From Kaistella faecalis (lineage in GTDB: Bacteria; Bacteroidota; Bacteroidia; Flavobacteriales; Weeksellaceae), in NCBI RefSeq assembly GCF_019195395.1, contig NZ_CP078067.1, positions 2,433,783 to 2,497,782 on the forward strand: 64,000 nt of DNA, in the 5' to 3' direction. How positions within the stretch are numbered: the first letter of the stretch is position 1; each line of letters opens with the position of its first letter. Under the pieces are notes generated by a model. It made no database searches and was not told the DNA's origin. It saw nothing but the letters and a program-made list of their open reading frames with translations. Positions 1 through 15,434 of the stretch are shown in pieces. The position numbers were made by a program, and so were the translations under genes.

Positions 1-1
1 A

Positions 2-349
2 GGCTTCTACGAATGGAAATGGCTGGATGACAAAGGAAAGGAGAAGAATAAACATTTTCTGACTTTACCCAATGCCGGCATAATTTCTTTAGGAGGAATA
101 TATGGGAACTGGACGGATAAGGAAACCGGAGAAGAACTTAGAACCTTTTCTATTGTTACAACTCAGGCAAATGAATTAATGACGGAAATTCACAATACAA
201 AACATCGTATGCCTGTTGTCCTTACAAAGGCAATGGAAAAAGAATGGTTAATGGATAGAGATATTCAGGATTTTGCTTTTCCTAATCATGAAGCAGACCT
301 GCTCGCAATAAATCTTGATGAACCTGCAGAACCTAAAACCTTATTTTAA
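2..349 (+). CDS. SOS response-associated peptidase (SRAP/YedK-HMCES), 5' truncated
   Basis: The reading frame is already open at the window edge and runs to TAA at 347-349, giving 115 residues of a protein whose family is usually about 200-240 residues. The N-terminal part, including the catalytic Cys2, lies outside the window. What is seen is the GFYEW segment, which carries the active-site Glu of the family, and a HNTKHRMPVVL segment, which holds the catalytic His. Family members crosslink covalently to abasic sites in single-stranded DNA and shield them. Two small unknown genes follow after 10 bp, possibly in the same transcript. The family call is firm; the role is known only from the family. 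Confidence 0.88.
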   Translation, partial: GFYEWKWLDDKGKEKNKHFLTLPNAGIISLGGIYGNWTDKETGEELRTFSIVTTQANELMTEIHNTKHRMPVVLTKAMEKEWLMDRDIQDFAFPNHEADLLAINLDEPAEPKTLF

Positions 350-359
350 AAATTAAGAG

Positions 360-647
360 ATGATTACTTATAGAGAACACTTGATAGCTGCAATGCAAGA
401 TATGATTAAAATGCAATACATTCTTTTTGAGAATATTGTGAACCTTTCACTAACAGGTGAAATGAAGCATCTTCAAGGTTTTGTGGATGAAGATGAGTCT
501 TACGCATTTACTATGAATCATTTTAGAGGGGTGGAAGATCCTAATGTCCAATCCTTAATTCAGTTATGTGACATTATTCAGCAGAAATTAACTCAATTGA
601 TGGAGAAAAATAATATTGAATATAAGGATATAGATCTTGATACATGA
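360..647 (+). CDS. hypothetical protein, 95 aa
   Basis: I do not recognise this protein. It starts with ATG 10 bp after the SRAP gene and its TGA overlaps the ATG of the next gene (ATGA at 644-647), so the two small genes are probably translationally coupled. The protein is soluble, acidic and probably helical, rich in Met, Gln and Asp/Glu, with no signal peptide or transmembrane stretch. A C-terminal helix (about residues 62-85) could form a coiled coil. The four-base overlap is the main support for it being real. Confidence 0.6.
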   Translation: MITYREHLIAAMQDMIKMQYILFENIVNLSLTGEMKHLQGFVDEDESYAFTMNHFRGVEDPNVQSLIQLCDIIQQKLTQLMEKNNIEYKDIDLDT

Positions 648-910
648 TTACAATACCAGATCATAACACTGAACTTATTTTATTGCTAAGTGAGAAATAC
701 AAACTTTCGAAAATTATAGTTCATGAAAGTTTCCAGGTTTTTACGAAGCCGTTTATAAATCGTGTATCCAAAGATTGTGCAGAAAATGAGGGACTCGAAC
801 ATCACCTCCATTTGAAACAGCTTGCGGTGGACCTTGTGAGAGCTGCTCAAAAACATGTACCATTTCAAATTTCGATTTCCGACGGTACTGTCACAATAAA
901 GAATCTTTAA
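644..910 (+). CDS. hypothetical protein, 88 aa
   Basis: I do not recognise this protein. It overlaps the previous gene by ATGA and is the last gene before a 1.1-kb non-coding stretch. It is a small soluble alpha/beta-looking protein with a His-rich middle (EHHLHLK, about residues 52-58) and a beta-like C-terminus ending ISDGTVTIKNL. An antisense ORF at 686-958 is a shadow. No function can be assigned from sequence. Confidence 0.55.
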   Translation: MITIPDHNTELILLLSEKYKLSKIIVHESFQVFTKPFINRVSKDCAENEGLEHHLHLKQLAVDLVRAAQKHVPFQISISDGTVTIKNL

Positions 911-1060
911 GTACCACAGCTCTGCCACAGCAAATAACATAATTGCAATTATAGTCAATTTGCCATCGCAAACCGTTGCCCTCCACTCCGCTGCGCTGCG
1001 TTACGTGCAAACCAGCACCATTATCACCTATAATTGAAAATTATGCTAAATGCTTTCCTG

Positions 1061-1083
1061 TTGTGTGGGCGAAGCCCACACAA
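1061..1083. repeat. perfect 10-bp hairpin with GAA loop
   Basis: TTGTGTGGGC (1061-1070) and GCCCACACAA (1074-1083) are exact reverse complements around a GAA triloop. No T-run follows, so it is not an ordinary intrinsic terminator. It lies at the front of the structured-repeat array. Confidence 0.75.
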
Positions 1084-1189
1084 GCCAACGCCTTCCAGCC
1101 GCCAGGACAGTCATAATTTAGAAGACCCTCTCACCGTTCCAGTGCCCAAATCGACAGTCTAGTCTTGAAAGGTCCATGTGCCTGCAGTC

Positions 1190-1362
1190 CATAGCCTGCT
1201 TTTTTTCAGCGGAAAGTGTAGTGGCAGGCTATGCACTTCGGTACCGCGCACAGCAGTATTCCGGGTAACAAAAATATGCGTAGGCCATCCCTTACCCTTT
1301 GCCCACTTCCAGCAGCATCACGCATATTTTCCATTGCCCTCCATACCGCTGTCTTTCCAGCC
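1190..1362. repeat. structured repeat unit 1 (two hairpins)
   Basis: Hairpin A is CATAGCCTGC (1190-1199) paired with GCAGGCTATG (1224-1233), ten perfect pairs. The conserved core GGTACCGCGCACAGCAGTAT follows at 1240-1259. Hairpin B pairs CAGCAGTAT (1251-1259) with ATACCGCTG (1343-1351, one mismatch) and encloses a perfect 11-bp stem, AAAATATGCGT (1271-1281) with ACGCATATTTT (1320-1330). The 3' border is CCGCTGTCTTTCCAGC. Units 2 and 3 share this plan. Confidence 0.7.
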
Positions 1363-1420
1363 CCTTCAGTATTTGTTTATCGAAAGGGAGTTGCCTAAGC
1401 TTTCCCATGTTCCTCCAGCC

Positions 1421-1570
1421 AATAGCCGGCATACACTTCACGGACGTGACCGGCCGTTCCGTTGCAGCCCGCTATACGCTTCCGCAACCGCGCACAGCAG
1501 TATGCCGGCTCACCGGGAATTGCTTATTTTATTTTGGTTCCGGTAAGCCGTCATACAGCTGTCTTTTCCC
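1421..1570. repeat. structured repeat unit 2 (two hairpins)
   Basis: Hairpin A is weaker than in the other units: 1422-1430 pairs with 1467-1475 with one mismatch. The core is GCAACCGCGCACAGCAGTAT (1484-1503). Hairpin B is long: 1495-1519 pairs with 1538-1561, about 21 pairs with three mismatches and one bulged G, around an AT-rich loop. The 3' border CAGCTGTCTTTTCCC matches the borders of units 1 and 3 in position and general sequence. Confidence 0.65.
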
Positions 1571-1629
1571 TCGCTGTCCGCCGCCTTGAATGAAAAGCCG
1601 TTCTTAAAATTTGCCATGTCCCGCTAGTC

Positions 1630-1745
1630 AATAAACTGCTTTGTTTCAGCAGAAAAATGTAGTGGCAGTTTATTCACTATCGGTACCGCGCACAGCAGTA
1701 TGCCGCTGCTGCGTGCCCTCGCATCGGCATACCGCTGTTTTTCCA
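1630..1745. repeat. structured repeat unit 3 (two hairpins)
   Basis: Hairpin A is AATAAACTGC (1630-1639) paired with GCAGTTTATT (1665-1674). Compared with unit 1, three base pairs have changed on both sides, while the loop keeps TTTCAGC and TGTAGTG. The core GGTACCGCGCACAGCAGTAT (1682-1701) is identical to unit 1. Hairpin B pairs CAGCAGTATGCCG (1693-1705) with CGGCATACCGCTG (1725-1737), 12 of 13 pairs. The 3' border is CCGCTGTTTTTCCAGC. Confidence 0.7.
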
Positions 1746-1910
1746 GCAGCTGAGGGGAGCTAGAAAAATCCCGCTTCGAAATCCCTGAATTTTATAATAA
1801 GCAAATCTCTTGTTTCACCATCCGGGAGACCCGGATAAGAAAAAATAAAAAAAAAGAAAGTAAAGTTATGGTTTCGGAAAAATGCCGTGACAATATCAAG
1901 CCCTTGCGGG

Positions 1911-1966
1911 TTTTTTGCAAAAAAGATGGCCGTGAAAAATGATACGGCAATCTTTTTTGCAAAAAA
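1911..1966. repeat. 56-nt near-perfect hairpin upstream of the DUF6943-like gene
   Basis: TTTTTTGCAAAAAAGAT (1911-1927) is the exact reverse complement of 1950-1966. After one mismatch the stem continues with GCCGT (1929-1933) against ACGGC (1944-1948), leaving a 10-nt loop. It lies about 100 bp upstream of the ATG at 2070 and is flanked by a purine run (1837-1860) and a nearly complementary pyrimidine run (2003-2028). Confidence 0.75.
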
Positions 1967-2069
1967 ATATTGCATAGCATTTTTCCTCCCGAGGGGTAGA
2001 GCACTTTCTTTTTTTTCTTTTTTTCTTTTGAATAGTATTCAGAAGAGCAAATTTTTTAAAACAAAAGTT

Positions 2070-2495
2070 ATGCTTACCAACAAAGTACGGACGTACTCAG
2101 TCCACCGCCCAGCCCCGGAAACGGCTGTTTTTATTCTGAATCGTGGCCACAATGCCGGAAAACCTTTGCGTGAACCTTGCCCGAACTGCTTCATCATCTA
2201 CTGTGGCAACCAGGAAGAACTCGAAACCGTTTACTGGACCTTTTACGCACTCTGGAAAAACGGATTCTTTCATCCTTATCTCTGCGGCAGCGTCATCGAA
2301 ATGCTCAGACTCTTCGATCTGAAGAAGCTGCTGCAGAACTTCATTCAGCCTGGCATCGAAAAAGCCATCCGAAACCCGGAAATGATCCACAAAATCAAAT
2401 CCATCCACGACCTGGAACAGAAGCAAAATCAGCAGACCCAACTCATCAGCCAGCTCCGCGCTGCACTCATTCAGAAATATTATTACTCAATCTGA
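2070..2495 (+). CDS. DUF6943-like protein
   Basis: The protein has 141 residues counted from ATG 2070 (MLTNKVRTYS). The frame is open back to 1887, but that extension runs through the 56-nt hairpin and pyrimidine runs and reads as low-complexity Phe/Lys, so the internal start is preferred. It shows a segment FILNRGHNAGKPL followed by PCPNCF, then a tryptophan/tyrosine-rich middle and an ending rich in Gln. I recall this pattern from a Bacteroidota family annotated DUF6943, often near mobile DNA. The CPNC pair could bind metal, which is inference. No function is known. Confidence 0.7.
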   Translation: MLTNKVRTYSVHRPAPETAVFILNRGHNAGKPLREPCPNCFIIYCGNQEELETVYWTFYALWKNGFFHPYLCGSVIEMLRLFDLKKLLQNFIQPGIEKAIRNPEMIHKIKSIHDLEQKQNQQTQLISQLRAALIQKYYYSI

Positions 2496-2629
2496 AATCT
2501 AAAAATTCCCTCCGGGGAATTTTTTGTTTTGAGTGCCACTTTTCTCACCCATATCCCGTACTTAAGTCATACTTATTTCACCCCTTTTAATAAAACCCCG
2601 CAAACGGACGCAGGCAAAAATTTAGACAC

Positions 2630-2655
2630 AAAAAAAGCCTGTCATTACAACAGGC
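2630..2655 (-). terminator. intrinsic terminator of the 4585-2694 cassette
   Basis: GCCTGT (2637-2642) and ACAGGC (2650-2655) form a stem. Read on the minus strand it is followed by a run of seven T (2636-2630). It lies 39 bp past the stop codon of the last cassette gene. Confidence 0.75.
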
Positions 2656-2693
2656 CATCTAACTATTAAAATTCTAACAATGGGACTTAAGTG

Positions 2694-2984
2694 CTATTTT
2701 TCAGCTTCATCAGCTGGATCTTCACCCGATTTTCCGCGATTTTTAGCGGATTTTTCGCCATACTCTTCAGAGCTGACAGCCGTCTGACTTACCGCACCGA
2801 GAATGGTTCCGCCTAAAAGCAAGTAACCTCCAATGGAAATTACTGCTGCAGGTAAGGCAACCGGCGCCGCCACAAGGGCACCGCCTACAGCCGACAAACC
2901 CAGTCCGATATTGCGGGCAATCCGAAACCACTTCGGAGTGGGTGAACTCATTCTGCTTGCTAAATTCATGTTTCTATTTTTCAT
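2694..2984 (-). CDS. small holin-like membrane protein, 96 aa
   Basis: The protein has a basic N-terminus, then a glycine/alanine-rich hydrophobic region from about residue 26 to 68 that can form two transmembrane helices with a short turn, then a charged tail (KSAKNRGKSGEDPADEAEK). Size and topology resemble class II phage holins, but I recognise no named family. It is the last gene of the cassette, starts 11 bp inside the upstream gene (2974-3237) and is followed by a terminator. The holin idea rests on topology and on the neighbouring DUF5675 gene only. Confidence 0.55.
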   Translation of the reverse strand: MKNRNMNLASRMSSPTPKWFRIARNIGLGLSAVGGALVAAPVALPAAVISIGGYLLLGGTILGAVSQTAVSSEEYGEKSAKNRGKSGEDPADEAEK

Positions 2985-3237
2985 GATCTTGATTTTTTGT
3001 TTGGTTAATTTCTAATTTATTCATCCTTTGTTCCAGGTATTCAACTTTCTTGGTGAGGATATCATAAGAAGTTCTGAATTCTGTTTTGATGATCAGAGCC
3101 ATGGTCTTAACCTCTGACATATCTCTTTCCATACTCTTGAAATCGGTGTGCAGCTGCTTGATGAAGTAAGCAACGATACCCAGCAGAACACTGCTGATAA
3201 AACCGAACATCACACTCAACGTTAATTCACTTCCCAT
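2974..3237 (-). CDS. membrane-anchored coiled-coil protein, 87 aa
   Basis: An N-terminal transmembrane helix (about residues 5-26) is followed by a charged helical region with heptad spacing (about 30-80), typical of a short anchored coiled coil. Its end overlaps the next gene by 11 bp and it starts 12 bp after the DUF5675 gene, so all three are one transcription unit. Such small anchored coiled coils sit beside holins or lytic enzymes in phage lysis cassettes, as spanin-like or regulatory partners, but no family assignment is possible here. Confidence 0.6.
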   Translation of the reverse strand: MGSELTLSVMFGFISSVLLGIVAYFIKQLHTDFKSMERDMSEVKTMALIIKTEFRTSYDILTKKVEYLEQRMNKLEINQTKNQDHEK

Positions 3238-3249
3238 GATGATTCTGTT

Positions 3250-3702
3250 TTAAAATTGAAAATTGTTCTGGATCTCAATCTGATTATCCTTGCTTTTGGC
3301 TGCCGCCAAAAGTTTAGGATAAACCTGCCGGTATGCATCGCGGCTCTGCAGAACCTGATAGTCTCCGTCTTTTTTGATGTAGCTCAATCCTACGAGCGGA
3401 CAACCGGCTGTGTGTTCGATCGTGTTTCCTGTATGGATATACACCAGGTCGAAAGTCGGCAGATCATCAATTTCAATCATGCCCTGATGCATTTGTCCGT
3501 ACTTCTGGGAATACGTTCTGTTCATTCCACCTGTGGTGTTGGTTTTAAGCTGAAATTTTCCCTCCGGGATCGCGGTCCTGCTTTTAATCTTAACCTGGCG
3601 GATTTTATCTTCCAGGAGAAAGCATTGAAAAATCCCATCTATGTACAGATGAGAAAGGGTGCTTTCTTTGCCCTGGGCTACTCTTACTATTTTTGTTTTC
3701 AT
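3250..3702 (-). CDS. DUF5675 family protein
   Basis: This 150-residue protein matches the DUF5675 pattern as I remember it: a TLSHLYIDG..CFLLED start, TAIPEGKFQL at 43-52, IHTGNT at 89-94 and TAGCPLVG at 98-105. The conserved His and Cys in the last two motifs suggest an enzyme, perhaps acting on peptidoglycan, but I know of no demonstrated activity. The family is common in phage and phage-derived regions. It sits between the 267-aa unknown gene and the small membrane proteins. A 156-residue antisense ORF (3256-3726) is a shadow. Confidence 0.8.
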   Translation of the reverse strand: MKTKIVRVAQGKESTLSHLYIDGIFQCFLLEDKIRQVKIKSRTAIPEGKFQLKTNTTGGMNRTYSQKYGQMHQGMIEIDDLPTFDLVYIHTGNTIEHTAGCPLVGLSYIKKDGDYQVLQSRDAYRQVYPKLLAAAKSKDNQIEIQNNFQF

Positions 3703-3736
3703 AAAGTTCTGTATTTGGATTTATGAAATGAGTGAT

Positions 3737-3765
3737 AAAAAAAAGGCTTCCATTTTCTGGAAGCC
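3737..3765 (-). terminator. terminator after the 267-aa gene
   Basis: GGCTTCC (3745-3751) pairs with GGAAGCC (3759-3765) around a 7-nt loop. On the minus strand a run of eight T follows (3744-3737). It separates the gene ending at 3782 from the DUF5675 gene, so the downstream trio may have its own promoter or depend on read-through. Confidence 0.75.
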
Positions 3766-3781
3766 CTTTCATGATCACATC

Positions 3782-4585
3782 CTAAAACACTTCCTCGATT
3801 TTGAGACAGTTACCGGTAGCAAATGGGTAATAAACTCCGTTTACTTCCTGGAAGAATTCGATTCCGATACACTGAAGTACAGAAACGGTATTGTCCAGCG
3901 TTGGTAAACCTGGCAAATCTGCCGTAATGGTATCACCGGAATAACTTTCATTAAGCGGGATAAAAGGTGATCTGGCAACTACACTCAGCTCATTATTCAC
4001 CGCGTCGTCCGGTTCATAAGTTCCGGTTATCGGGTTATAAGAAAAGTCTGCGATAACTGCCAAAGCATGGAGCAAACGGAAGTGCGAAGCACCTGCAGGA
4101 GCAGCGATCAATTCGATTGGTATGAACTCTTCTACAATAAAATCTGCAGTATTTCTTGCAGGATCATGATTCACCTGATATGGAGCATTGAAAACACCGT
4201 TGATCGATTGGTTCTTGTTGAACTCAAACCCATTCAGATAATTTCTCTGAGTGGAAATCTCAACTTTTCGGTAACCTCTGGCTTCCGTTCCGTCCTCCAG
4301 GTTGATTTTCTTCATGATCGAAGTTAATCTTCCCGTTACCTGAGTATCGGTAAATTTACCCATCAGCTGGGAAAGAGCGGTTCGCACCGCTTTCCCGGCG
4401 ATGGCACACCCACCGAACTCGTTCATGTTTTCGCGGGTACGCTCAAACTCCGGAGCGGTTTTAACCTGTTCTGCGGTGGGTCCGCCCACCATGCCGGCAA
4501 AAAATCCTTTTTGCCCTTTGATTTTGAAATGTCTAACGTCGCCTATGGTTCCGACGTATTTCATGAGACCTTTTTGTCTTGCCAT
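3782..4585 (-). CDS. conserved Bacteroidota protein of unknown function, 267 aa
   Basis: The start is placed at MARQKGLMKYVG (4585); the 13 extra residues possible upstream look like untranslated leader. The N-terminus, with 'GTIGDVRHFKIKGQKGFFAG' and 'APEFERTRENMNEFGG', resembles a family I recall from many Bacteroidota genomes, always of unknown function. The rest has beta-rich stretches and no signal peptide or transmembrane helix. It is divergent from the thermonuclease gene at 4730 and leads the minus-strand cassette. A virion or tail-like structural role is possible given the DUF5675/holin-like neighbours but is not shown. Confidence 0.65.
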   Translation of the reverse strand: MARQKGLMKYVGTIGDVRHFKIKGQKGFFAGMVGGPTAEQVKTAPEFERTRENMNEFGGCAIAGKAVRTALSQLMGKFTDTQVTGRLTSIMKKINLEDGTEARGYRKVEISTQRNYLNGFEFNKNQSINGVFNAPYQVNHDPARNTADFIVEEFIPIELIAAPAGASHFRLLHALAVIADFSYNPITGTYEPDDAVNNELSVVARSPFIPLNESYSGDTITADLPGLPTLDNTVSVLQCIGIEFFQEVNGVYYPFATGNCLKIEEVF

Positions 4586-4623
4586 GATATTAAATTTTGT
4601 AATTGATAATTTGAAGAAAAACA

Positions 4624-4638
4624 CTGTTGTCTAGACAG
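4624..4638. promoter_or_regulatory. palindrome in the divergent promoter region
   Basis: TGTCTAGACA (4628-4637) is a perfect 10-bp palindrome, and CTGT/ACAG extends it imperfectly to 4624-4638. It lies 40 bp upstream of the 4585 start and about 90 bp from the thermonuclease start. It is a candidate operator; no matching regulator is seen in the window. Confidence 0.35.
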
Positions 4639-4729
4639 TTATAAATTTCTTGAATTGTCTTTACAAAAGCAATAGTTAAAACACAGTAAATCAACGCATT
4701 ACAATGAAATTAACCCAAAATACACTACC

Positions 4730-5251
4730 ATGAACGTCAGCAAAACTATAAATCCGTCAGCAAAGTATTTTCAGATTCCGGGCATCATTACCGAAACCCA
4801 CTGGATCGTCGAAAGAGTTCTGGATGGAGATACCCTTATCGTAAAAGAAGAATTCGGTCAGGAAAGCAAAGAAATCCGACTTTACGGCCTTGATGCACCG
4901 GAAGTCCACATGAGCCGAAAAATGCGTGAGGATGAAGCGAAAAGCCACCTGCCTGCAGCGTTACTGCTGGAACTCGGACTGCAGAGTTTAGATTACGTGC
5001 TCCAGGTGTGCCCACCTGGAACCCGCATCACACTCCTGACCGAAAAGAAAAACGAACTCGACTTCTGGCTGCGCCAGCTAGCCTATGTCATTATGCCTTC
5101 CGGCAAATGCCTGAATGAGCTTCTAATAGAAAAGGGATGGGCAAAAACTTCTAACAATTACTATTGCAGTTATTTGCATTACTTTCAACAATTAACTATA
5201 TTAGCAAAAGCAAGCAATGCAGGAATATTCAAGTTTTCTGGAAGTTTCTAA
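4730..5251 (+). CDS. thermonuclease-like protein (SNase domain)
   Basis: A 173-residue staphylococcal-nuclease-like protein. Motifs are RVLDGDTL (Asp32 and Asp34, metal-binding region), IRLYGLDAPE (Arg50, Glu58), KKNELDFWLRQLAYV (Arg115) and LNELLIEKGWAK. These match the catalytic Arg, Glu, Arg trio and metal-binding Asp of SNase. There is no obvious signal peptide, so export is doubtful. The last 25 residues (Tyr/Cys-rich, then FKFSGSF) are atypical. It stands alone, divergent from the phage-like cassette, and fits a mobile-element cargo nuclease. Confidence 0.85.
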   Translation: MNVSKTINPSAKYFQIPGIITETHWIVERVLDGDTLIVKEEFGQESKEIRLYGLDAPEVHMSRKMREDEAKSHLPAALLLELGLQSLDYVLQVCPPGTRITLLTEKKNELDFWLRQLAYVIMPSGKCLNELLIEKGWAKTSNNYYCSYLHYFQQLTILAKASNAGIFKFSGSF

Positions 5252-5557
5252 AATGTTGTACCCATGTTGTACTACAGAATTAAAAGGAGTAAGCAAAACC
5301 CCGATTTTAGAAGCTTTCTCGCAAAATTAATTATATTGAACAAATATAAATAATTTTAGGGAGAATAGGAAAGTGCCGAATCATTGTCAGGGTCTAAAAT
5401 ATGATAAAATAACGTCCTGTTCGAATTGGGTTAAAAAGACGCAGTGTATATTTGTAAATGATTACAATCTGCTAACAAATGCAGGAAAGTGGTGAATTAT
5501 TATGAATTTGAATTATTTGTTTTATATTTGGAGGACAATTTTAAATAAAATAGATAT
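5252..5557. other. intergenic region with a tandem 9-bp repeat and promoter
   Basis: These 306 bases hold no gene. Just after the thermonuclease stop ATGTTGTAC occurs twice (5253-5261 and 5264-5272). The rest is AT-rich and holds the probable promoter for the secreted protein. This is the boundary between the accessory region and the ordinary chromosome; no attachment-site duplicate was found. Confidence 0.5.
5447..5454 (+). promoter_or_regulatory. -7 promoter element TATATTTG
   Basis: An exact match to the Bacteroidota TAnnTTTG element, with TTGG at 5426-5429 about 17 bp upstream as a possible -33 element. It would start transcription near 5460, giving a leader of about 100 nt. A second TATATTTG lies at 5523-5530, closer to the ATG, but lacks a clear -33 partner. 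Confidence 0.5.
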
Positions 5558-7150
5558 ATGAAAAAATTATTACTTTCTTGTTTCCTTGCAATGGGAATCG
5601 GTGCTCAAGCACAGTTAAACTACACAGGGGATTTTGAAGATGCGACCAATGTAGGACAGTATGGCCAGTTTGGTGGTGGAACATTTGAAACTGCTGCTGC
5701 GTGTTCAGGAACACTTGGTGGGCAATTGGCCATCGGTGGAACAGTTTCACAAACCGGATGGATGGTTATGAATGATGTTCTGGAAGAGGAATTTGGCAGT
5801 GTGAATAACGGTCAGGAAGCGGTTGTTACTTTCAGTTACAAAAAAGCTGCAGGAGTTACAGGGACTTTGTATGCTGCTGTTTTTACCTTTGTGCCAAGTT
5901 CAGGCGCCTGGAATATTGAATATGTTAGCACCGGTACAGTGCTTGGAACTGCGGCGATTACTACTTGTGCGCAGAAAACCGGTACAATTCCGGCAGGTAA
6001 AATGCAGCCAGGACAATCTTATGCATTCGGTGCTTGGTTTGTACCAAGCGGTGGAACCTCGGGCAATGTATTCATAGATAATATATCTATTGCACAGCAG
6101 TCTGTTACTACAGTTCCCGCATGTACAGCTTTCACAAATCCGGTGAACGGCGGTGTACTGCCTTCCGGAACCAATACGTTTACATGGCCAGCAGTTGCAA
6201 CTGCAGTAAATTATGTTCTTACTGTGGGAACCACGCCAGGCGGAAATGATACTTTTGGAGGTGTTGTTGCTGGAACATCCCAGAACGTAGCTCTTGCTCC
6301 TAATACAACTTACTACGCAACAGTAACACCTGCGAATACAGTTGGTGAAGCTACTGGCTGCACTGGGGTTACTTTCACTACAAATAATGTAATTACCTAT
6401 TGCGGTCCTCTAACGTCAAGTGCTCCAACTGCTGTTGCACCGATCAAGTCCGTTAATTTTGCTGGAACGACCAAGACTTCAGATGCAGCAGCTACTACAA
6501 TTGGCTCATTTGCAGCATATGAAGATTTCACAACTACAGTTTTTGAGGTAAAAGATAATGTAACTTCACTTCCTCTAACGGTATTGGGAACAACTAACGG
6601 AAATCCTGTTAATGGTTGGGCAATGTCGGTATTTATCGACTGGAACAGCGATGGTGATTTTGATGATGCAGGAGAGTCTTACTTCAATACCACTGCAACG
6701 ATGATCAGAAAAGCTAACGTACCAGATAACCCAACTTCCTTAACTGGTAATATTGCGATCCCTGCAGGAACAGCTTACGGACAGAAAAGAATGAGAGTTA
6801 AATATAATTTCTCAGGAACAGCAATTCATACAGCCTTGGTTTCCGGATGTGCTCAGATGGGTAACGGTCAGGCAGAAGATTATACCATTAATTATCAGCA
6901 GTTCCTTGCGGTAGGTGATGTAAATAAGTCAAATGTATCTGTATATCCTAATCCATTCAAAGATGTATTGAAAATCTCAGATATCAAAGGCGTAAAATCT
7001 ATCAATATTGTAGATGTATCAGGAAGAACTGTGAAAACATTAGCACCTGCTACTGAACTTAATCTTGGACAGCTGAAATCAGGAATGTACTTCGTGAATT
7101 TACAGTATACTGACGGTTCTGTGAAAACAGTGAAATCAATTAAAAAGTAA
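5558..7150 (+). CDS. secreted multidomain protein with T9SS type A sorting domain
   Basis: A 530-residue secreted protein. Residues 1-18 are a signal peptide (MKKLLLSCFLAMGIGAQA). A beta-rich N-terminal domain follows, then a fibronectin-III-like domain (about 190-280). A GEVED-like domain covers about 350-450, with a D-rich loop (DWNSDGDFDDAGE) and a closing GNGQAEDYTINY. The C-terminal type A sorting domain is about 455-530 (VYPNPFKDVLKI, then SGMYFVNL). This tail directs export through the type IX secretion system and release or anchoring at the cell surface. Such proteins are often adhesins or enzymes; no catalytic domain is visible. Confidence 0.88.
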   Translation: MKKLLLSCFLAMGIGAQAQLNYTGDFEDATNVGQYGQFGGGTFETAAACSGTLGGQLAIGGTVSQTGWMVMNDVLEEEFGSVNNGQEAVVTFSYKKAAGVTGTLYAAVFTFVPSSGAWNIEYVSTGTVLGTAAITTCAQKTGTIPAGKMQPGQSYAFGAWFVPSGGTSGNVFIDNISIAQQSVTTVPACTAFTNPVNGGVLPSGTNTFTWPAVATAVNYVLTVGTTPGGNDTFGGVVAGTSQNVALAPNTTYYATVTPANTVGEATGCTGVTFTTNNVITYCGPLTSSAPTAVAPIKSVNFAGTTKTSDAAATTIGSFAAYEDFTTTVFEVKDNVTSLPLTVLGTTNGNPVNGWAMSVFIDWNSDGDFDDAGESYFNTTATMIRKANVPDNPTSLTGNIAIPAGTAYGQKRMRVKYNFSGTAIHTALVSGCAQMGNGQAEDYTINYQQFLAVGDVNKSNVSVYPNPFKDVLKISDIKGVKSINIVDVSGRTVKTLAPATELNLGQLKSGMYFVNLQYTDGSVKTVKSIKK

Positions 7151-7172
7151 GTTTTTTAATAATTTAGTGAAG

Positions 7173-7200
7173 GCGGCAGATTTATCTGCCGCTTTTTTTT
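7173..7200 (+). terminator. terminator of the T9SS-secreted protein gene
   Basis: GCGGCAGA (7173-7180) pairs perfectly with TCTGCCGC (7185-7192) around TTTA, followed by eight T. It lies 22 bp after the stop codon. Confidence 0.9.
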
Positions 7201-7299
7201 TGAGCGTATGCCCGTAATAAATGATATCAATTTTTTCAATTCTTCCGGTTTTTTTGTAAAGATATTTTACCCTAATTTTACCGAAATTCTTCAGTAAAA

Positions 7300-10200
7300 A
7301 TGTATTTGATTTTCGATACCGAGACTACGGGTTTACCTAAAAATTTCAACGCACCGCTTACCGATTCCGACAATTGGCCCAGGATGGTTCAGATTGCCTG
7401 GCAACTGCATGACCGTGATGGTAATTTGATTGAAAATCAGGATTACATTATTAAACCCGAAGGTTACGATATCCCTTTTAACGCGACAAGAATTCACGGG
7501 ATTTCCACCAAAATGGCAAAGGAAGAAGGCCGGGATTTGGCGGATGTGCTGGCCGAATTTAATCAGGTGTTGCAGAAAGCTGAAGTCGTTGCCGGGCATA
7601 ATATCGATTTCGATTACAAAATTGCTGGTGCAGAATTTCACAGGAAGAATACTGAAAATATATTGCAGAAAATCCCCTCCGCGGATACTATGGAACTGGG
7701 AACAGATTTCTGTAAATTGGGTGGCGGAAGAAACGGCAGATACAAGTCTCCCAAACTCGAGGAACTTTACGAAAAACTTTACGGTGAAAAATTTGATGAA
7801 GCTCATAATGCCGCTGCCGACGTAAATGCGACTGCTCAAGTATTTTTTGAAATGATGCGTATCGGTATTATTCCTGCCGAAAATCTCAAAATATCAGAGG
7901 CGCAACTTCAGGATTTTATCTCAACTCATCCAAATCCGTTTCCGCCATTTGGAATCATCATCCGCAGGCAGGTTGCCGACTCGAAAAATAAGAAAAAAAT
8001 TGATTTTGGGGATACTGATGAAATCGAAATTGGTGATTATTTTAATTTTCATAATCACAGCATTTACTCCTCACTGCAGGCGTCAACACATATTTCAGAC
8101 CTTGTCAAAAAAGCGTTGGCCAATAATTTTTCTGCTGTAGGACTGGTAGATTTGGGGAATATGATGGGCGCTTTCAAGTTTGTTTCCGAAGTGGAAAAAG
8201 CCAATGCAAACATCAAAAAAACATACAAAGAATTCGAAGAGAAAAAAGTAAAAGCAGAGGAAGAAGGACAGCAGTTTAGTGACCCTGAGCCAAGAAAGGA
8301 ACCGCTCATACCGGTAATCGGATGCGAATTTTATATTTCCGACAGGCCCGAGCAGAAGCAGTTTACCAAAGATGATCCCGACCGCAGGACCAATGTGGTT
8401 TTACTTGCGAAAAATTTTAACGGATATAAAAATCTGGCAAAACTTTCGAGTTTGGGTTATGTAAATGGGTTTTATTTTGGTGTCCCGCGGATCTCACGAA
8501 AGATGATTGCTGAGTTTAAAGATGATCTGATTGCGCTTACTGCCGGAACTTTGGGCGATATTCCCAATACTGTTCTGGAATTTGGTGAGCAGAAGGGAGA
8601 GGAACTTTTCAAATGGTGGAAAGATACTTTTGCAGAAGATTTCTATGTGCAGATCCAGAACCATCAGGTGGAAGAGGAAGAACATTTAAATGAAGTACTG
8701 CTTGAATTTGCAGAAAAATACGATGTGAAAATTCTGGCTCAGAATGAAACCTTCTACACCGAAAAAGCCGATGCCAATATTCAGGATATTTTATACTGTA
8801 TCAAAGATGGTGAAAAACTGTCTTCACCTGTGGGGAAAGGTTTTGGTAAAAGAAGAGGTTTGCCGTCCACAGAATTTTATATCAAAAATGCTGATGAACT
8901 GAAACAGACTTTTATCCAGTTTCCTGATGCGTTTGAGGCTTACACTGAATTTTTGGCCAAGTTCGAACCTTATACCTTAAAACGTGATGTACTGCTTCCA
9001 GAGTTTGATATTCCCGAAGAATTCTTAAGCGACGAAGATAAGATAGATGGCGGAAAACGTGGTGAAAACGCTTATCTTAGACATTTAACCTACGAAGGTG
9101 CTGCAAAAAGATATGGTGAAGTAACTGAGGAGATCATAGAAAGGCTGGATTTTGAACTTGAAGTTATTGCCAATACGGGGTATCCGGGGTACTTTCTTAT
9201 TGTACAGGATTTCTGCAACGAAGCCCGTAAAATGGGCGTATGGGTTGGTCCCGGCCGGGGTTCTGCAGCCGGTTCTGCGGTAGCGTATTGTACAGGAATC
9301 ACCAATGTAGATCCTATTAAATATGATTTGCTATTTGAGCGTTTTCTTAATCCTGAAAGAATTTCAATGCCGGATATCGATATCGATTTCGATGACGAAG
9401 GACGCGATAAAATCATCAAATGGGTGGTTGAAAAATACGGCAAGACGAATGTTGCGCAGATTATCACCTACTCGGTTCTGGGCGGGAAATCAGCCATTAA
9501 AGATGCAGGAAGGGTTCTGGATCTTTCAATTCCGGAAACCAACAACATCGCCAAACTGATCCCTCCAAGTCCAGGGATGAATATCGCGAAAGCTTTTTCT
9601 AAATTTGATAAATTAAGTCCTGAAGACAAAGTACTTGCACAGGAAATGAAAGATATCCTGGAGAATAAGCAGGATTCAAGATTTGGAGTGCTTTCCGCTG
9701 CACAGCGAATGGAAGGTTGTATCAGAAATACAGGAATTCATGCCTGTGGGGTAATTATTACTCCGGAAGATATTTCGAACCTTGTCCCCATTACCATTGC
9801 GGCAAAAGATCCCGATATTCTGGTTTCGCAGTTCGATAACTCTGTAGCCGAAAGTGCCGGTTTGCTTAAAATGGATTTCCTTGGTTTGCGGACTTTAACC
9901 ATCATTAAGCACGCTATCAAACTTATCAAAGAAAGACACCAGGTTGATATTAATCCTGATGAAATTCCGCTTGATGACCTTAAGACTTATCAGCTGTTTC
10001 AGGAAGGAAGAACGATTGGAATTTTCCAGTATGAAAGTCCCGGGATGCAGAAATACATGCGCGAACTTAAACCGACACAGTTTGCAGATTTAATCGCCAT
10101 GAACGCGCTGTACAGACCGGGTCCAATAAAATACATCCCGAATTTCATCAACAGGAAGAATAAACTCGAAGAAACAGTTTACGATCTGAAGGAAACCGAA

Positions 10201-11955
10201 GAATTCCTCGCAGAAACGTATGGAATTACGGTATATCAGGAGCAGGTAATGCTTCTTTCCCAAAAACTGGCCAACTTTACCAAAGGAGAAGCCGATACGC
10301 TGAGAAAAGCGATGGGTAAAAAGGACCGCGCCACGCTCGATAAAATGTATCCGAAATTTATCGAAGAAGGGGAGAAAAACAATCTCGCGATCGATAAACT
10401 CAATAAAATCTGGAAAGACTGGGAAGCTTTTGCCGAATATGCCTTCAACAAATCCCACTCCACCTGTTATGCGCTGATTGCTTATCAAACCGCTTATCTG
10501 AAAGCCAATTACCCGGCAGAATATATGGCGAGTGTAATGACCAATAACCTGAACAATACAAAGCAGATAACCATGTTTATGGAGGACTGCAAAAGTATTG
10601 GGGTAGATGTTTTGGGACCTTCTGTAAACGAATCACAGTACGAATTTTCGGTGAACGAAAAAGGACAGATCCGTTTTGGCCTTGGCGCGATTAAAGGAAT
10701 TGGGGAAGGACCGAGTGAAGCCATCGTGAACACAAGAAAGGCCGGAAGATTCAAAAATATTTATGATTTCTTCGAAAAGATTCCGTCGTCACAGATGAAC
10801 AAAAGAGTAGCGGAAAGTTTAGTGGTGGCAGGAGCTTTCGATGAGGTCGACCGTTATCACCGTGCTCAATATTTCGATATTGATATCTCCGGAAAAACAA
10901 ATATTGAAAGACTTCTGCGTTACGGGCAGAGTTTTCAGGACAATATCAACGAGATCGAAAATTCACTTTTTGCCGATTTTGCTGATGAAGTAAAAATAGA
11001 ACAGCCAAAAATAAATCCGGCTCCGGAGTGGCAAAGCATGCATAAACTCAACAAGGAAAAGGAAATTATCGGATTTTATCTCTCTGCGCATCCGCTGGAC
11101 GAGTACAAATTTCAGTATCAGTTCATTCAGGGTGCTTTAGGAAAAAAAGAAATTCTGGAAGGTAAAAAAGACGATGTTGCTGAACTTGAAAAAATAATTC
11201 TACCGGTTGAACTTGCAGATGTAGCTGACGTTGATGATGAGTTAATCGATATTCCCGCCGATATTTTAAGCGGCGAAGAAGAAACTTTGATTGAAGAGCC
11301 TTCGAAAAAAGCAGAACCTAAGGGAAGTTTTAATTTCCTGAATCTTGATGAGGTTGAAGCCTTTAAAGATTCTGTTTTTGCCAATCAGCAGCCAGATCTG
11401 TTCAGTGATGAAAAATTGAGCTGGAAGGAAAAACAGGCGCAGAAAAATAATTCTCCTGAATATATGGTCGCAGGGTTGGTGACCGAATACAGCGTGCGCG
11501 ATGGTAAAAACAGCGGCGAGAAAATAGCATTCATTACTCTGGAAGATTACAGCGGGAGTTACGGTTTCCGCCTTGGTGACCGCGATTATATGAGATTGAG
11601 AGATAAAATTGATGTGCAGCGTTTTGTGATCTTTAAAATTAAATTTTCTCAGGGTAAAGACGGAAGAGTCTTCGTAAATGTCGCTGAGGTCATCGATCTG
11701 AAAGATGCTTTTGAGAAATTTGCAAAGAAAATGACCGTCGTTGTTAATCTGCAGGATTTGCGAAGGGAAGATATTGACTTCTTCAAAGCGAATTTTATCG
11801 AAAATCAGGGCGAGCAAAAACTGAACTTTTTTGTAAAGAACCCCGAAGATCAGTCGACAATTGAATTGATGTCGATGAAGGCACATGTGGAAATAAACGG
11901 TGACCTGCTCGAGATTATTCACGATATGCAGAAATATGAGGTTTTCCTGAACTAA
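7300..11955 (+). CDS. dnaE: DNA polymerase III alpha subunit with fused 3'-5' exonuclease
   Basis: At 1,551 residues it is longer than the usual DnaE (about 1,160), because a DEDDh exonuclease domain is fused at the N-terminus: DTETTG (Asp6, Glu8), AGHNIDFD near 100 and HNAAADVNAT near 168-177. A PHP domain starts near 249 (HNHSIYSS), but its second motif reads DLGN where active PHP domains have DHGN, and a later NETFY replaces NDVHY, so metal binding is probably lost. The polymerase core has GPGRGSAAGS (near 651) and the catalytic PDIDIDFDDEGR (near 688-699). An OB-fold region lies near 1390-1480. It replicates the chromosome with built-in proofreading. Confidence 0.97.
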   Translation: MYLIFDTETTGLPKNFNAPLTDSDNWPRMVQIAWQLHDRDGNLIENQDYIIKPEGYDIPFNATRIHGISTKMAKEEGRDLADVLAEFNQVLQKAEVVAGHNIDFDYKIAGAEFHRKNTENILQKIPSADTMELGTDFCKLGGGRNGRYKSPKLEELYEKLYGEKFDEAHNAAADVNATAQVFFEMMRIGIIPAENLKISEAQLQDFISTHPNPFPPFGIIIRRQVADSKNKKKIDFGDTDEIEIGDYFNFHNHSIYSSLQASTHISDLVKKALANNFSAVGLVDLGNMMGAFKFVSEVEKANANIKKTYKEFEEKKVKAEEEGQQFSDPEPRKEPLIPVIGCEFYISDRPEQKQFTKDDPDRRTNVVLLAKNFNGYKNLAKLSSLGYVNGFYFGVPRISRKMIAEFKDDLIALTAGTLGDIPNTVLEFGEQKGEELFKWWKDTFAEDFYVQIQNHQVEEEEHLNEVLLEFAEKYDVKILAQNETFYTEKADANIQDILYCIKDGEKLSSPVGKGFGKRRGLPSTEFYIKNADELKQTFIQFPDAFEAYTEFLAKFEPYTLKRDVLLPEFDIPEEFLSDEDKIDGGKRGENAYLRHLTYEGAAKRYGEVTEEIIERLDFELEVIANTGYPGYFLIVQDFCNEARKMGVWVGPGRGSAAGSAVAYCTGITNVDPIKYDLLFERFLNPERISMPDIDIDFDDEGRDKIIKWVVEKYGKTNVAQIITYSVLGGKSAIKDAGRVLDLSIPETNNIAKLIPPSPGMNIAKAFSKFDKLSPEDKVLAQEMKDILENKQDSRFGVLSAAQRMEGCIRNTGIHACGVIITPEDISNLVPITIAAKDPDILVSQFDNSVAESAGLLKMDFLGLRTLTIIKHAIKLIKERHQVDINPDEIPLDDLKTYQLFQEGRTIGIFQYESPGMQKYMRELKPTQFADLIAMNALYRPGPIKYIPNFINRKNKLEETVYDLKETEEFLAETYGITVYQEQVMLLSQKLANFTKGEADTLRKAMGKKDRATLDKMYPKFIEEGEKNNLAIDKLNKIWKDWEAFAEYAFNKSHSTCYALIAYQTAYLKANYPAEYMASVMTNNLNNTKQITMFMEDCKSIGVDVLGPSVNESQYEFSVNEKGQIRFGLGAIKGIGEGPSEAIVNTRKAGRFKNIYDFFEKIPSSQMNKRVAESLVVAGAFDEVDRYHRAQYFDIDISGKTNIERLLRYGQSFQDNINEIENSLFADFADEVKIEQPKINPAPEWQSMHKLNKEKEIIGFYLSAHPLDEYKFQYQFIQGALGKKEILEGKKDDVAELEKIILPVELADVADVDDELIDIPADILSGEEETLIEEPSKKAEPKGSFNFLNLDEVEAFKDSVFANQQPDLFSDEKLSWKEKQAQKNNSPEYMVAGLVTEYSVRDGKNSGEKIAFITLEDYSGSYGFRLGDRDYMRLRDKIDVQRFVIFKIKFSQGKDGRVFVNVAEVIDLKDAFEKFAKKMTVVVNLQDLRREDIDFFKANFIENQGEQKLNFFVKNPEDQSTIELMSMKAHVEINGDLLEIIHDMQKYEVFLN

Positions 11956-11999
11956 TTTTAATAGCCCATAGAAAAATATTGTAGAATTTTTTGATATTG

Positions 12000-12027
12000 A
12001 AACAGCATCTTAGGTGCTGTTTTTTTA
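12000..12027 (+). terminator. dnaE terminator
   Basis: AACAGCA (12001-12007) pairs with TGCTGTT (12015-12021), followed by a T-run. It lies about 45 bp after the dnaE stop. Confidence 0.85.
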
Positions 12028-12154
12028 TGTGTTTGAGGGTGTTTCCTAGAAATTGACTTGATGTTAAGGTGTTGATAGTGAATTACTTTGGGTGATTTCA
12101 CGGTATTGTTTCTCAATGAAAACATGTATATTCGTAATCCTAAACACAAATCAT

Positions 12155-12811
12155 ATGAAAACTGAAATTATTCTTTTTGACAATCATTTTCTGTATTTAC
12201 AAGCGTTGTGTTGTCTGTTGGATAAAAAAGGATTCGACAAAAAATACAATTATCAATATACAGTAAATCCAGATGAGTTAGAGAATTTAGTAAGTGAAAA
12301 ATCAGAAATTGCGGTGCTGAATATTTTAGGATTAAGTACCAACGACGCTTTCACTTTAGTTGAACAGTTAATGACTGTAAATCCTGAACTGAAAATCATC
12401 ATTCTGACACCGAATCCTGATGTGAAAGTCATCAAGAAATTCTTCGATAAGGGCGTAAAGTCTGTCCTGAGCAGAGATACCGATGCCGCACTATTTATCA
12501 CGGCATTAAATGAAGTAATCGCCGGCAATGTTTTTATAAGCGACGAAACTAAGAATTCGCTTTATAACTTCATTTGTAATCTTGAGGATCCTAATGAAAA
12601 AAAATTCGGAGTAATAGAAGAACTTACCGGGAGAGAGAAAGAAGTACTAGAGTTGATTTGCGAAGGATTACGCACTAAAGATATTGCCGATAAACTTTTT
12701 ATAAGCATCCACACCGTAGAGTCGCACCGCCGGAAAATTATGTCTAAACTCGATGTACGGAATTCATCCATGCTGGTGAAATTTGCGGTAGACAATCACT
12801 TGGTTAATTAA
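12155..12811 (+). CDS. LuxR/NarL-type response regulator with degenerate receiver
   Basis: The start is placed at MKTEIILFDNH (12155), giving 218 residues. The N-terminal receiver-like domain covers about 1-120 and a LuxR helix-turn-helix about 153-215 (LTGREKEVLELI, IADKLFISIHTVESHRRKI). The receiver lacks key residues: the phosphoacceptor position after AVL is Asn56 instead of Asp, the usual DD pair is Asp9-Asn10, and the Lys of the KDT motif is Arg107. It therefore probably does not take a phosphate from a kinase, and no histidine kinase gene is adjacent. DNA binding is likely; its targets are unknown. Confidence 0.88.
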   Translation: MKTEIILFDNHFLYLQALCCLLDKKGFDKKYNYQYTVNPDELENLVSEKSEIAVLNILGLSTNDAFTLVEQLMTVNPELKIIILTPNPDVKVIKKFFDKGVKSVLSRDTDAALFITALNEVIAGNVFISDETKNSLYNFICNLEDPNEKKFGVIEELTGREKEVLELICEGLRTKDIADKLFISIHTVESHRRKIMSKLDVRNSSMLVKFAVDNHLVN

Positions 12812-12838
12812 AAAAAAGCCACCGTAATTGGTGGTTTT
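12811..12838. terminator. bidirectional terminator
   Basis: CCACC (12819-12823) pairs with GGTGG (12830-12834) with an A-run before and a T-run after. It serves both the LuxR gene and the convergent small gene at 13052-12843. Confidence 0.8.
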
Positions 12839-12842
12839 TAAT

Positions 12843-13052
12843 TTATGCTGCTTTCTTTGTAGCTTTTTTCTCTGCAGAATGGTCACCTTTACAGTCTTTG
12901 TGATTCTTCATATCGCAGTTTTGGACTGTCTTTTTAGCATCCATCTTACATTCTTTGGAATCTTTGCCTGCGCAGCAGGATTTTTTGGGAGTTTCCTGGG
13001 CAAATCCCAAAGTGAAAGCACTTATCGCCAATACCGAAAAAATTTTCTTCAT
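12843..13052 (-). CDS. small secreted Cys/Lys-rich protein, 69 aa
   Basis: The protein has a signal peptide (about residues 1-18, ending GFA) and a short mature part rich in Lys, Asp and Cys. It contains CCAGKDSKEC, NCDMKNHKDC and KGDH, then a Lys/Ala tail. The Cys and His spacing could bind a metal or form disulfides in the periplasm, which is inference. I recall similar short proteins in Chryseobacterium but no function. It is convergent with the LuxR gene. Confidence 0.7.
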   Translation of the reverse strand: MKKIFSVLAISAFTLGFAQETPKKSCCAGKDSKECKMDAKKTVQNCDMKNHKDCKGDHSAEKKATKKAA

Positions 13053-13128
13053 ATTGTTCTGGTTTTTATTTGTTTAGAGATACGAATATATGAATATTTT
13101 GGAATAAGGAAGCGCGAAACTACTATCT

Positions 13129-14271
13129 TTAACTTAAAGTTCTTTTGAGAATTTCTGCTGCTTTCAGAATTGTTTCCTCTTTTTTTGCAAAGCAGAACCG
13201 CACTCGTCCGTAATTTGTAGGTTCGTGATAAAATGCGGATACAGGAATTGTCGCCACCTTCGAATGCGTCGTCAGCCAAACTGCAAATTCTTTTTCGGTT
13301 TTTGATGATATCTTTTCATAGTTCATAATCTGGAAATATCCGGCTTCAGCTTTTTCAGTGATTGAAAATGGCAGATCTTTAAAACAATCAATAAAAAAAT
13401 CTCTTTTTTGCTGCATAAACCTTCGGTTTTCTTCTACATCAAAGATTTCTAAATATTTCGCAATTGCATATTGAGCCGGCGAATTAACACTGAAACTTAA
13501 ATACTGGTGAACCCGCCGGTACGCCTTAGAAAGTTCTTCTGAAGCTAACACATATCCAATCTTCCAACCCGTGATATGAAACATCTTACCGAAGGAAAAA
13601 ATACTGAAACATTTTTCCTTTAAAACAGGGTGATGAAATGCGCTGTAAAATTCATGCTGGTCATACGTAAGAAGGTCATAAACTTCGTCGGAAATTAGAA
13701 TAATATCGGTGTTTACGATAATTTTTGATAACTCATCCCAGTCTTCTTTTTTCCAGATTTTCCCGGAAGGGTTGTGCGGAGAATTAATGATGATTGCGCG
13801 TGTTTTGAGACTGATAACCTGTTTCAGTGCTTCAAAATCGACATCGAAATTATCTTTAAGATTTACGTAAACTGGAATTCCGCCGTTAACTTCTATTGCC
13901 GGGACATAAGAATCGTAGCAGGGCTCCAAAACTATAACTTCATCACCAAAGTTTACAATCGCTGCAAGAGCCGTGTAAATCGCATAACTGGCGCCTGGCG
14001 AAACCGTAATGTGTTCTTTCGCTACGTCAATTGGATTCCTTCTGTTTCGGTTAAATTCGGTTAACTGTTCAATAAGCATTGGTAAACCTGCCATCGGAGC
14101 ATACTGATTGAAATTTTTTTCCGTTCCTTCCCCCAGAAGTCTTTTCAGGCGCACATCAATCTCATAATCGGGAAAACCCTGGGATAGGTTAACCGCGTCG
14201 TGTTGCTGTGCCAGAGCCGACATTTCTGAGAAAATCGTAAGGTCGCTGCCCGAATGTTTTCTTTTAATCAT
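13129..14271 (-). CDS. PLP-dependent class I/II aminotransferase (methionine aminotransferase type)
   Basis: The start is placed at ATG 14271 (MIKRKHSG), giving 380 residues; a TTG two codons upstream is less likely. It has the fold type I pattern: NLSQGFPDYE near the start, NQYAPMAGLP, a glycine-containing PGASYAIYTAL cofactor loop, NSPHNPSGK, ISDEVYDLL and FSFGKMFHITGWKIGY, where the Lys forms the aldimine with PLP. The SQGFPD..QYAP pattern is that of the YbdL/kynurenine aminotransferase-like group, which uses methionine and aromatic amino acids. Substrate choice is inferred. Confidence 0.9.
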   Translation of the reverse strand: MIKRKHSGSDLTIFSEMSALAQQHDAVNLSQGFPDYEIDVRLKRLLGEGTEKNFNQYAPMAGLPMLIEQLTEFNRNRRNPIDVAKEHITVSPGASYAIYTALAAIVNFGDEVIVLEPCYDSYVPAIEVNGGIPVYVNLKDNFDVDFEALKQVISLKTRAIIINSPHNPSGKIWKKEDWDELSKIIVNTDIILISDEVYDLLTYDQHEFYSAFHHPVLKEKCFSIFSFGKMFHITGWKIGYVLASEELSKAYRRVHQYLSFSVNSPAQYAIAKYLEIFDVEENRRFMQQKRDFFIDCFKDLPFSITEKAEAGYFQIMNYEKISSKTEKEFAVWLTTHSKVATIPVSAFYHEPTNYGRVRFCFAKKEETILKAAEILKRTLS

Positions 14272-14345
14272 ACTCAAATTTATAATAATTGTTTTATAAT
14301 CGGATCTGAAAAAAAATGCTATTTTTAAACTTTACAAAATTATTT

Positions 14346-15368: not shown

Positions 15369-15386
15369 AATTTTATCTCAAAAAAT

Positions 15387-15417
15387 AATCCGTTGCTTTT
15401 GCAGCGGATTTTTGTTT
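15387..15417 (+). terminator. terminator of the M28 peptidase gene
   Basis: AATCCGTTGC (15387-15396) pairs with GCAGCGGATT (15401-15410), one G-T pair, around TTTT and followed by a T-rich tail. It ends 18 bp before the tRNA gene. Confidence 0.85.
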
Positions 15418-15434
15418 TTGTAAATTTGGTTTCC

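Follow-up and report, generated by a model that had tools for sequence, protein, structure and literature searches.

Ordered two-hairpin domains under selection for base pairing in a Kaistella faecalis island: a candidate large modular RNA

Introduction

Next to the cargo genes of an integrated island in Kaistella faecalis lies a stretch of DNA that folds into repeated pairs of hairpins. What kind of element do these hairpins form, and is it RNA or DNA that folds? The initial annotation described three tandem copies of a two-hairpin element with covarying stems. We followed up this description in the 64,000-nucleotide stretch of DNA in which the copies were noticed, referred to here as the window, and in related genomes.

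Results

Extent and layout of the structured locus

The non-coding structured locus covers positions 919-2041 of the window, about 1.1 kb, and the three units observed at the outset are its middle portion. Its parts, from left to right, are a left border that includes unit 0, three two-hairpin units (U1, U2 and U3), and a 200-bp hairpin block, block X, all of which we tentatively assigned to the minus strand. The left border with unit 0 (919-1170), aligned over 21 loci, has an abrupt edge against variable cargo genes. The edge of homology fell at window positions 914-931 in 18 of 20 loci, at 900 in L043 and at 995 in L046; in L047 the cargo is also homologous to that of the window, and no border is visible. 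Unit U1 (1173-1358) has a hairpin A with a TTTCAGCGGAAA loop, the core, and a hairpin B with an 82-nt interior, and scored 64.0 bits with model R1. Unit U2 (1404-1568) has a class-2 hairpin A, the core, and a hairpin B with a 48-nt interior, and its score of 138.8 bits is that of a member of the R1 training set. Unit U3 (1613-1744; 81.4 bits) has a hairpin A with a TTTCAGCGGAAA-type loop, the core, and a hairpin B with a 26-nt interior. Block X (1838-2041), also aligned over 21 loci, is a long A/T-rich stem around inner hairpins, with an inverted repeat of 25 bp (1837-1861 and 2003-2027, 92% complementary), and it is retained in five loci in which the DUF6943 gene, otherwise its neighbor, was not seen (L036, L038, L049, L050 and L054).

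Compared with dinucleotide shuffles, the whole region gave folding z-scores of -4.6 to -9.8 in four loci, on both strands. Covariation of a folded structure along an extended non-coding region, as is looked for in a large structured non-coding RNA, was found here, where two-sided covariation was counted with controls in the class-2 units only and the other parts of the locus are represented by folding. A protein-coding reading of the array was rejected: the recurrence of open reading frames, 1178-1546 among them, reflects conservation of the DNA, and some hairpin interiors (26 and 140 nt) have lengths that are not divisible by three.

Plan and order of the units

When folded singly, each unit forms hairpin A, a single-stranded core and hairpin B. 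The window contains three exact copies of the core CCGCGCACAGCAGTAT, at 1244, 1488 and 1686, and allowing up to three mismatches there are four matches versus 0.13 expected, which confirms that the units share a plan. Units 1 and 3 do differ at three base pairs of the A stem, all of them compensated, and the closing arms of hairpin B are kept around the variable interiors of U1, U2 and U3, both as claimed. Across islands these interiors are 25-26, 46-48, 82-84, 140-141 or 196 nt long, and a mismatch at the sixth pair from the base of hairpin B was found in 40 of 41 distinct units.

The order of the units was counted from R1 matches of at least 21 bits in 27 loci. Two or three units were present in 26 of these, and one in L036. 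The first unit has, where it was measured, a B interior of 82-84, 140-141 or 196 nt, and it carries a TTTCAGCGGAAA-type A loop in all loci but L042, L045, L048, L053, L055, L063, L070 and L089, which have a different tip. The second unit is characterized by a class-2 A hairpin, whose tip differs in L038, L050, L054 and L063, and by B interiors measuring 25-26 or 46-48 nt. The third, present in nine loci, has a loop of the TTTCAGCGGAAA type and B interiors measuring 26 or 48 nt. The order U1-U2-(U3) between the left border and block X is largely constant. Among the 20 loci with both borders detected, 15 have a compact spacing of 0.81-1.08 kb, and five (L048, L049, L050, L054 and L066) have genes between units. 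The linker between U1 and U2 is replaced by a gene in L049, and L048 has inserts that hold frames of 110 codons on the plus strand and 177 codons on the minus strand, with half-unit duplicates, recognized by eye, at the insert edges.

The units are thus differentiated, ordered domains of a longer structured locus rather than loose repeats. The three tandem copies of the initial annotation are real, and the description was too small, the copies being domains of the 919-2041 locus in a largely constant order. This constancy, together with the 15 compact loci, suggests one ordered molecule.

Two further features of individual loci were observed. The L048 inserts, at 6500-6970 and 7150-7960 (flipped orientation), contain one gene each and lie between units; the first inserted frame resembles, by eye, an HTH/excisionase-type protein. 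REP-like palindromes of the GAGCCTGTCGAAGG type are inserted in the hairpin A tips of L042, L050, L054 and L067.

Selection on base pairing and the strand that folds

Compensatory changes were counted in 18 class-2 units over 31 pairs, comprising 26 of the 29 pairs of the consensus fold (three were left out) and five added by eye. With a structure derived from the same alignment on which covariation was counted, two-sided compensatory change was present in 16 pairs and 54 cells. The shuffle control on the minus strand gave 7.8 pairs and 13.4 cells. When the partner was shifted by 1-3 columns, the maximum was 6 pairs with 13 cells for the minus strand and 8 pairs with 11 cells for the plus strand. 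One B-stem pair occurs as C-G, G-C and U-A. Of five measures one, the number of further pair types, was weak, being equaled by 25 of 500 shuffles on the minus strand and 203 of 500 on the plus strand. We also considered 23 further units from the genus and eight other genera, aligned by sequence only. Three with fewer than 20 Watson-Crick pairs were dropped, and in the 20 units of this selected set 536 of 589 lettered cells were Watson-Crick. These results strongly support selection on the pairing and hence on the fold, as had been proposed from the three units.

The types of mismatch favor the minus strand, where what reads as A.C on the plus strand becomes a G.U wobble. The non-Watson-Crick cells of the class-2 training units, read on the plus strand, were A.C in 22 cases versus G.T in 2, and in the held-out further units the figures were 15 versus 6. 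Six alignments folded without G-U presented 27 columns with A.C versus 13 with G.T in the plus fold, and 30 versus 15 in the minus fold; the class-3 units alone lean slightly the opposite way (three G.T columns, two A.C). The folding z-scores of the four loci were alike on both strands, with a gap explained by composition, and plus and minus covariance models scored the units about equally, in a loose comparison of models that differ in length and weighting. We consider this a lean toward a folded molecule from the minus strand, short of proof.

Scanning 15 loci with a Bacteroidetes-type promoter pattern gave no minus-strand match inside the locus, and sigma-70-like sites were close to chance (4 versus 2.4 expected). 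Terminator-like sites numbered 10 in window 800-2800 versus 2.6 in shuffles. One of these is on the minus strand within U3 (1652-1636) and could end a minus-strand RNA there.

The island and its mobility

The island consists of 25.2 kb between 20-bp repeats beside dnaE, and the structured locus is close to its right end. The right attachment repeat (5333-5352) is identical over its 20 bp to the left copy, which lies beyond the window. Two relatives (the genomes behind L075 and L076) have an empty site at dnaE; the flanks of the empty site overlap by 24 bp, and the window's genome has two copies there, identical over 20 bp. The left part of the island encodes, in this order, a tyrosine integrase, a 298-aa protein, an HTH_17 protein and a BT4734/VapE primase-helicase. 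The integrase gene lies some 20 kb to the left of where the window begins, at the opposite end of the island, and the primase gene is more than 15 kb from the structured locus. The earlier statement that no cassettes or integrase are present consequently needs correction, given this tyrosine integrase and the genes found between units in five of 20 loci.

The cargo includes a large restriction-like protein (by eye), an S24 peptidase, a UmuC-type polymerase, a phospholipase-D-type protein and SRAP. Its end occupies positions 1-910 on the plus strand, with the SRAP gene, which extends left of the window, and genes for 95-aa and 88-aa proteins. To the right of the cargo come the structured locus and then a conserved six-gene module, which opens with a DUF6943 protein (2070-2495, plus strand; PF22105, E 7.4e-47). 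The next four genes are on the minus strand. A 96-aa protein (2694-2984) looks membrane-bound by eye and has no Pfam match; its family has 18 entries, two of which are the window's own locus. An 87-aa protein (2974-3237) has one membrane helix, by eye, and weak PHROG matches without assigned function, and it is followed by a DUF5675 protein (3250-3702; PF18925, E 8.7e-30; phrog_1501). A 268-aa protein (3782-4588) was without match in the phage collection, and a structure search with it gave no convincing match. The final gene ahead of the island end encodes a staphylococcal-nuclease-like protein (4730-5251, plus strand; PF00565, E 7.6e-6).

An integrase and attachment repeats at the island ends are what is found in phage satellites of the PICI/PLE kind. 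As for gene content, a VapE-type primase is present, and a scan of the module found its six proteins without structural PHROG. Our search of the window's own genome for a conjugative relaxase of the PF03432 type found none.

Integrases of at least 41% identity occur at 19 places in the genus, and in 16 of these a relative of the 268-aa protein is located 22-37 kb away on the same contig. Other genera share this picture in part. Genome G626 has the primase, the locus and all six module proteins in the same order, in an examined stretch that stops short of the integrase, and G462 has the integrase, primase and locus, with no module proteins found in the stretch examined. The locus and all six module proteins were found in G598, G059 and G308, three of the six in G367 and G578, and none in G224. 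The window's genome, G022 and two places of G012 carry identical copies of the 268-aa protein, while the dnaE N-terminal protein is only 78% and 87% identical. In L184, from another genus, the 268-aa protein is 97.8% identical. Judging from these comparisons, the island moves between species and genera.

Distant relatives of the 268-aa protein (about 26-41% identity) occur in many genomes of the genus, even where close copies are absent. At L057, L085 and L086 the G012 contigs end within the module, and two module copies with an identical 268-aa protein are present there. The window's genome has one more unit with a nearby block X at L036 (C1:2615866-2616008), where the DUF6943 gene was not seen; this is probably a diverged or decayed second island.

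Distribution

Within the family, the covariance model (E <=1e-5, stricter filters) detected units in 41 of 320 genomes, from 11 of 33 genera. The many copies near mobile genes anticipated by the initial annotation were found. Nine of 395 genomes drawn from the order have units, eight from the same family and one, outside it, with a weak match. The window's own genome has four units at E 1e-5, three of them at this locus. An exact pattern search of named genomes returned 19 stretches, and R1 recognized units in 17 of these, labeled Kaistella, Chryseobacterium, Epilithonimonas and one Flavobacteriia MAG. No model match at E 0.001 was obtained in the stretches from Paenibacillus and Clostridia, and the pattern matches there are likely due to chance. 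No match was found in IMG/VR contigs with one exact 20-letter pattern, to a phage record with the 268-aa protein, or to a plasmid record with window 900-4700.

Some weaker likenesses were also observed. L153, from a genome that belongs to a different family, has a weak unit match at 6527-6670 (25.8 bits). A single degenerate unit-like sequence is found behind an operon that, by eye, is RND-type transporter-like in L044, L056, L059 and L064, where it scored only 13-16 bits with the model. The same RND-linked sequence is recognizable in L060-L062 and L069 and is very similar between species.

Discussion

Any explanation must account for ordered domains under selection for pairing, placed in an integrated island that has spread among species and genera. 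We put at about even the prospect that minus-strand transcription of the locus yields one large modular RNA serving island transfer or dealings with a helper phage; that it is RNA that folds, and that this RNA is made from the minus strand, is what we infer from the data, and its role is a guess. A largely constant order of the units, the compact size and continuity of the locus, and the strand lean that its parts share fit a single minus-strand RNA, and the main points against it are the genes between units in five of 20 loci and the minus-strand terminator-like site in U3. Block X would be the 5' domain of such an RNA, U3, U2 and U1 its middle domains, and unit 0 its 3' domain. The constant core of each unit, CTGTGCGCGGTGACGGAAG on the minus strand, separates hairpin B from hairpin A and might be a contact site for a protein, the ribosome or a partner RNA, and the variable stems may serve as a scaffold that is free to change while pairing holds. 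Perhaps the island uses the RNA for its own transfer, or against or with a helper phage, in the manner of the giant RNAs of phages and satellites. More tentatively, the locus may represent a new class of giant modular RNAs in little-described phage-satellite-like islands of Bacteroidota, built of ordered two-hairpin domains with the same exposed core, their number and arm lengths tuned between islands, and with linkers that can host genes.

Some of the same observations could be explained by a single-stranded DNA site, in which the bottom strand folds and a recombinase swaps cargo, working like attC without being attC. Cargo turnover does reach the left border, intact units are separated by genes in the five loci, the L048 inserts end in what look by eye like half-unit duplicates, and both the bottom-strand lean of the mismatch types and the variable hairpin interiors would be expected. 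We nevertheless find this explanation unlikely, because R' and R'' boxes are absent from 919-1760, the own genome is without an integron integrase above the cut-off, the units keep a largely constant order across islands where cassettes would be shuffled, the 177-codon frame in L048 is on the opposite strand, and block X and unit 0 are conserved though they are not units. A related idea is that the locus acts in cis as DNA in the life cycle of the island, as a replication origin, transfer origin or packaging site whose hairpins are bound by proteins. The long A/T-rich inverted repeat adjoining repeated hairpins, the VapE-type primase-helicase encoded by the island, and the precedent of P4, which replicates with a distant cis element, are consistent with this; it seems rather improbable to us given that the primase gene is over 15 kb away, that two-sided compensation at 16 of 31 pairs exceeds, in our judgement, the usual need of such sites, and that the mismatch asymmetry is not expected for a double-strand cruciform.

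Finally, the hairpins might be REP-like palindromes or terminators gathered behind genes without joint function, and the units do sit behind cargo genes, in a region rich in terminator-like sites (10 versus 2.6 in shuffles), with REP-like inserts in some hairpin A tips. This is very unlikely for units that are large, ordered and unscattered, three of the four units of the own genome (E 1e-5) being at this one locus. A large modular RNA is the explanation that we prefer.

Giant structured RNAs from mobile elements form a small group whose roles are not known. The locus described here is compact, exists in natural size variants of one to three units, occurs in cultured non-model flavobacteria and adjoins a small gene module, and for these reasons deletion and probing could directly test how such an RNA acts. 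It also marks a widespread island family within the bacterial family of the window (labels Kaistella, Chryseobacterium and Epilithonimonas).

Comparison with known systems

In a CRISPR array, the repeats are short and identical, and the unique spacers between them have a constant length. The three diverged copies, with start spacings of 244 and 198, are not such an array, in agreement with the initial annotation, and this candidate was rejected. Known Rfam families were rejected as well, since only tRNA reached the gathering score over the window and no family did at the locus; this includes Flavo-1, a comparison suggested by the initial annotation. With E up to 5 in 900-2100, GOLLD, ROOL and Flavo-1 were absent among 25 rows, and HEARO scored 15.0 bits versus 83.

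Integron attC sites carry the motifs R' (GTTRRRY) and R'' (RYYYAAC). We found 0 and 0 of these on both strands of 919-1760, where shuffles gave 0.61 and 1.04, so that the result is weak alone. The integron integrase model TIGR02249 had seven matches in the own genome, none over the cut-off, and the 14 control genomes likewise gave matches below it. The likeness to attC first noticed does not amount to membership, which we rejected for the lack of R boxes and of an IntI above the cut-off. The likeness itself includes genes that can lie between folded sites, a variable hairpin interior and a bottom-strand lean, but the locus has two hairpins per unit and a largely constant order, besides lacking R boxes and an IntI above the cut-off.

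As far as titles and the beginnings of abstracts tell, no description of this element was recognized among the papers listed by our literature searches. SGI1 is an island whose hosts belong to another phylum. Its sgm-sRNA is an island-encoded RNA required for island transfer (PMC9299015), and the predicted RNA of our locus would likewise be encoded by its island. Phages and satellites from other phyla do produce large non-coding RNAs in abundance (PMC7567579; PMC12286853). In PLE satellites and phage ICP1, the most abundant transcripts are predicted to be non-coding (PMC7567579). The PLE IIR transcript and the ICP1 giant non-coding RNA resemble the locus, by description, as large non-coding stretches, here in a satellite-type integrative element (PMC7567579). 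The IIR transcript is there described with antisense homology to PLE gene leaders, whereas antisense matches of our locus to other island sequence were none beyond chance.

GOLLD and ROOL are RNAs of phages and prophages; the function of GOLLD is given as not known, many of its members exceed 800 nt, and its linker sometimes carries tRNAs (PMC12286853). By contrast, no tRNA was found within window 1-15434, and the locus has no Rfam match and is composed of tandem, differentiated two-hairpin domains. What its predicted RNA would share with GOLLD and ROOL is the size class, an elaborate covarying fold and carriage by mobile elements (PMC12286853). If it is transcribed, the locus fits among the giant structured RNAs of mobile elements.
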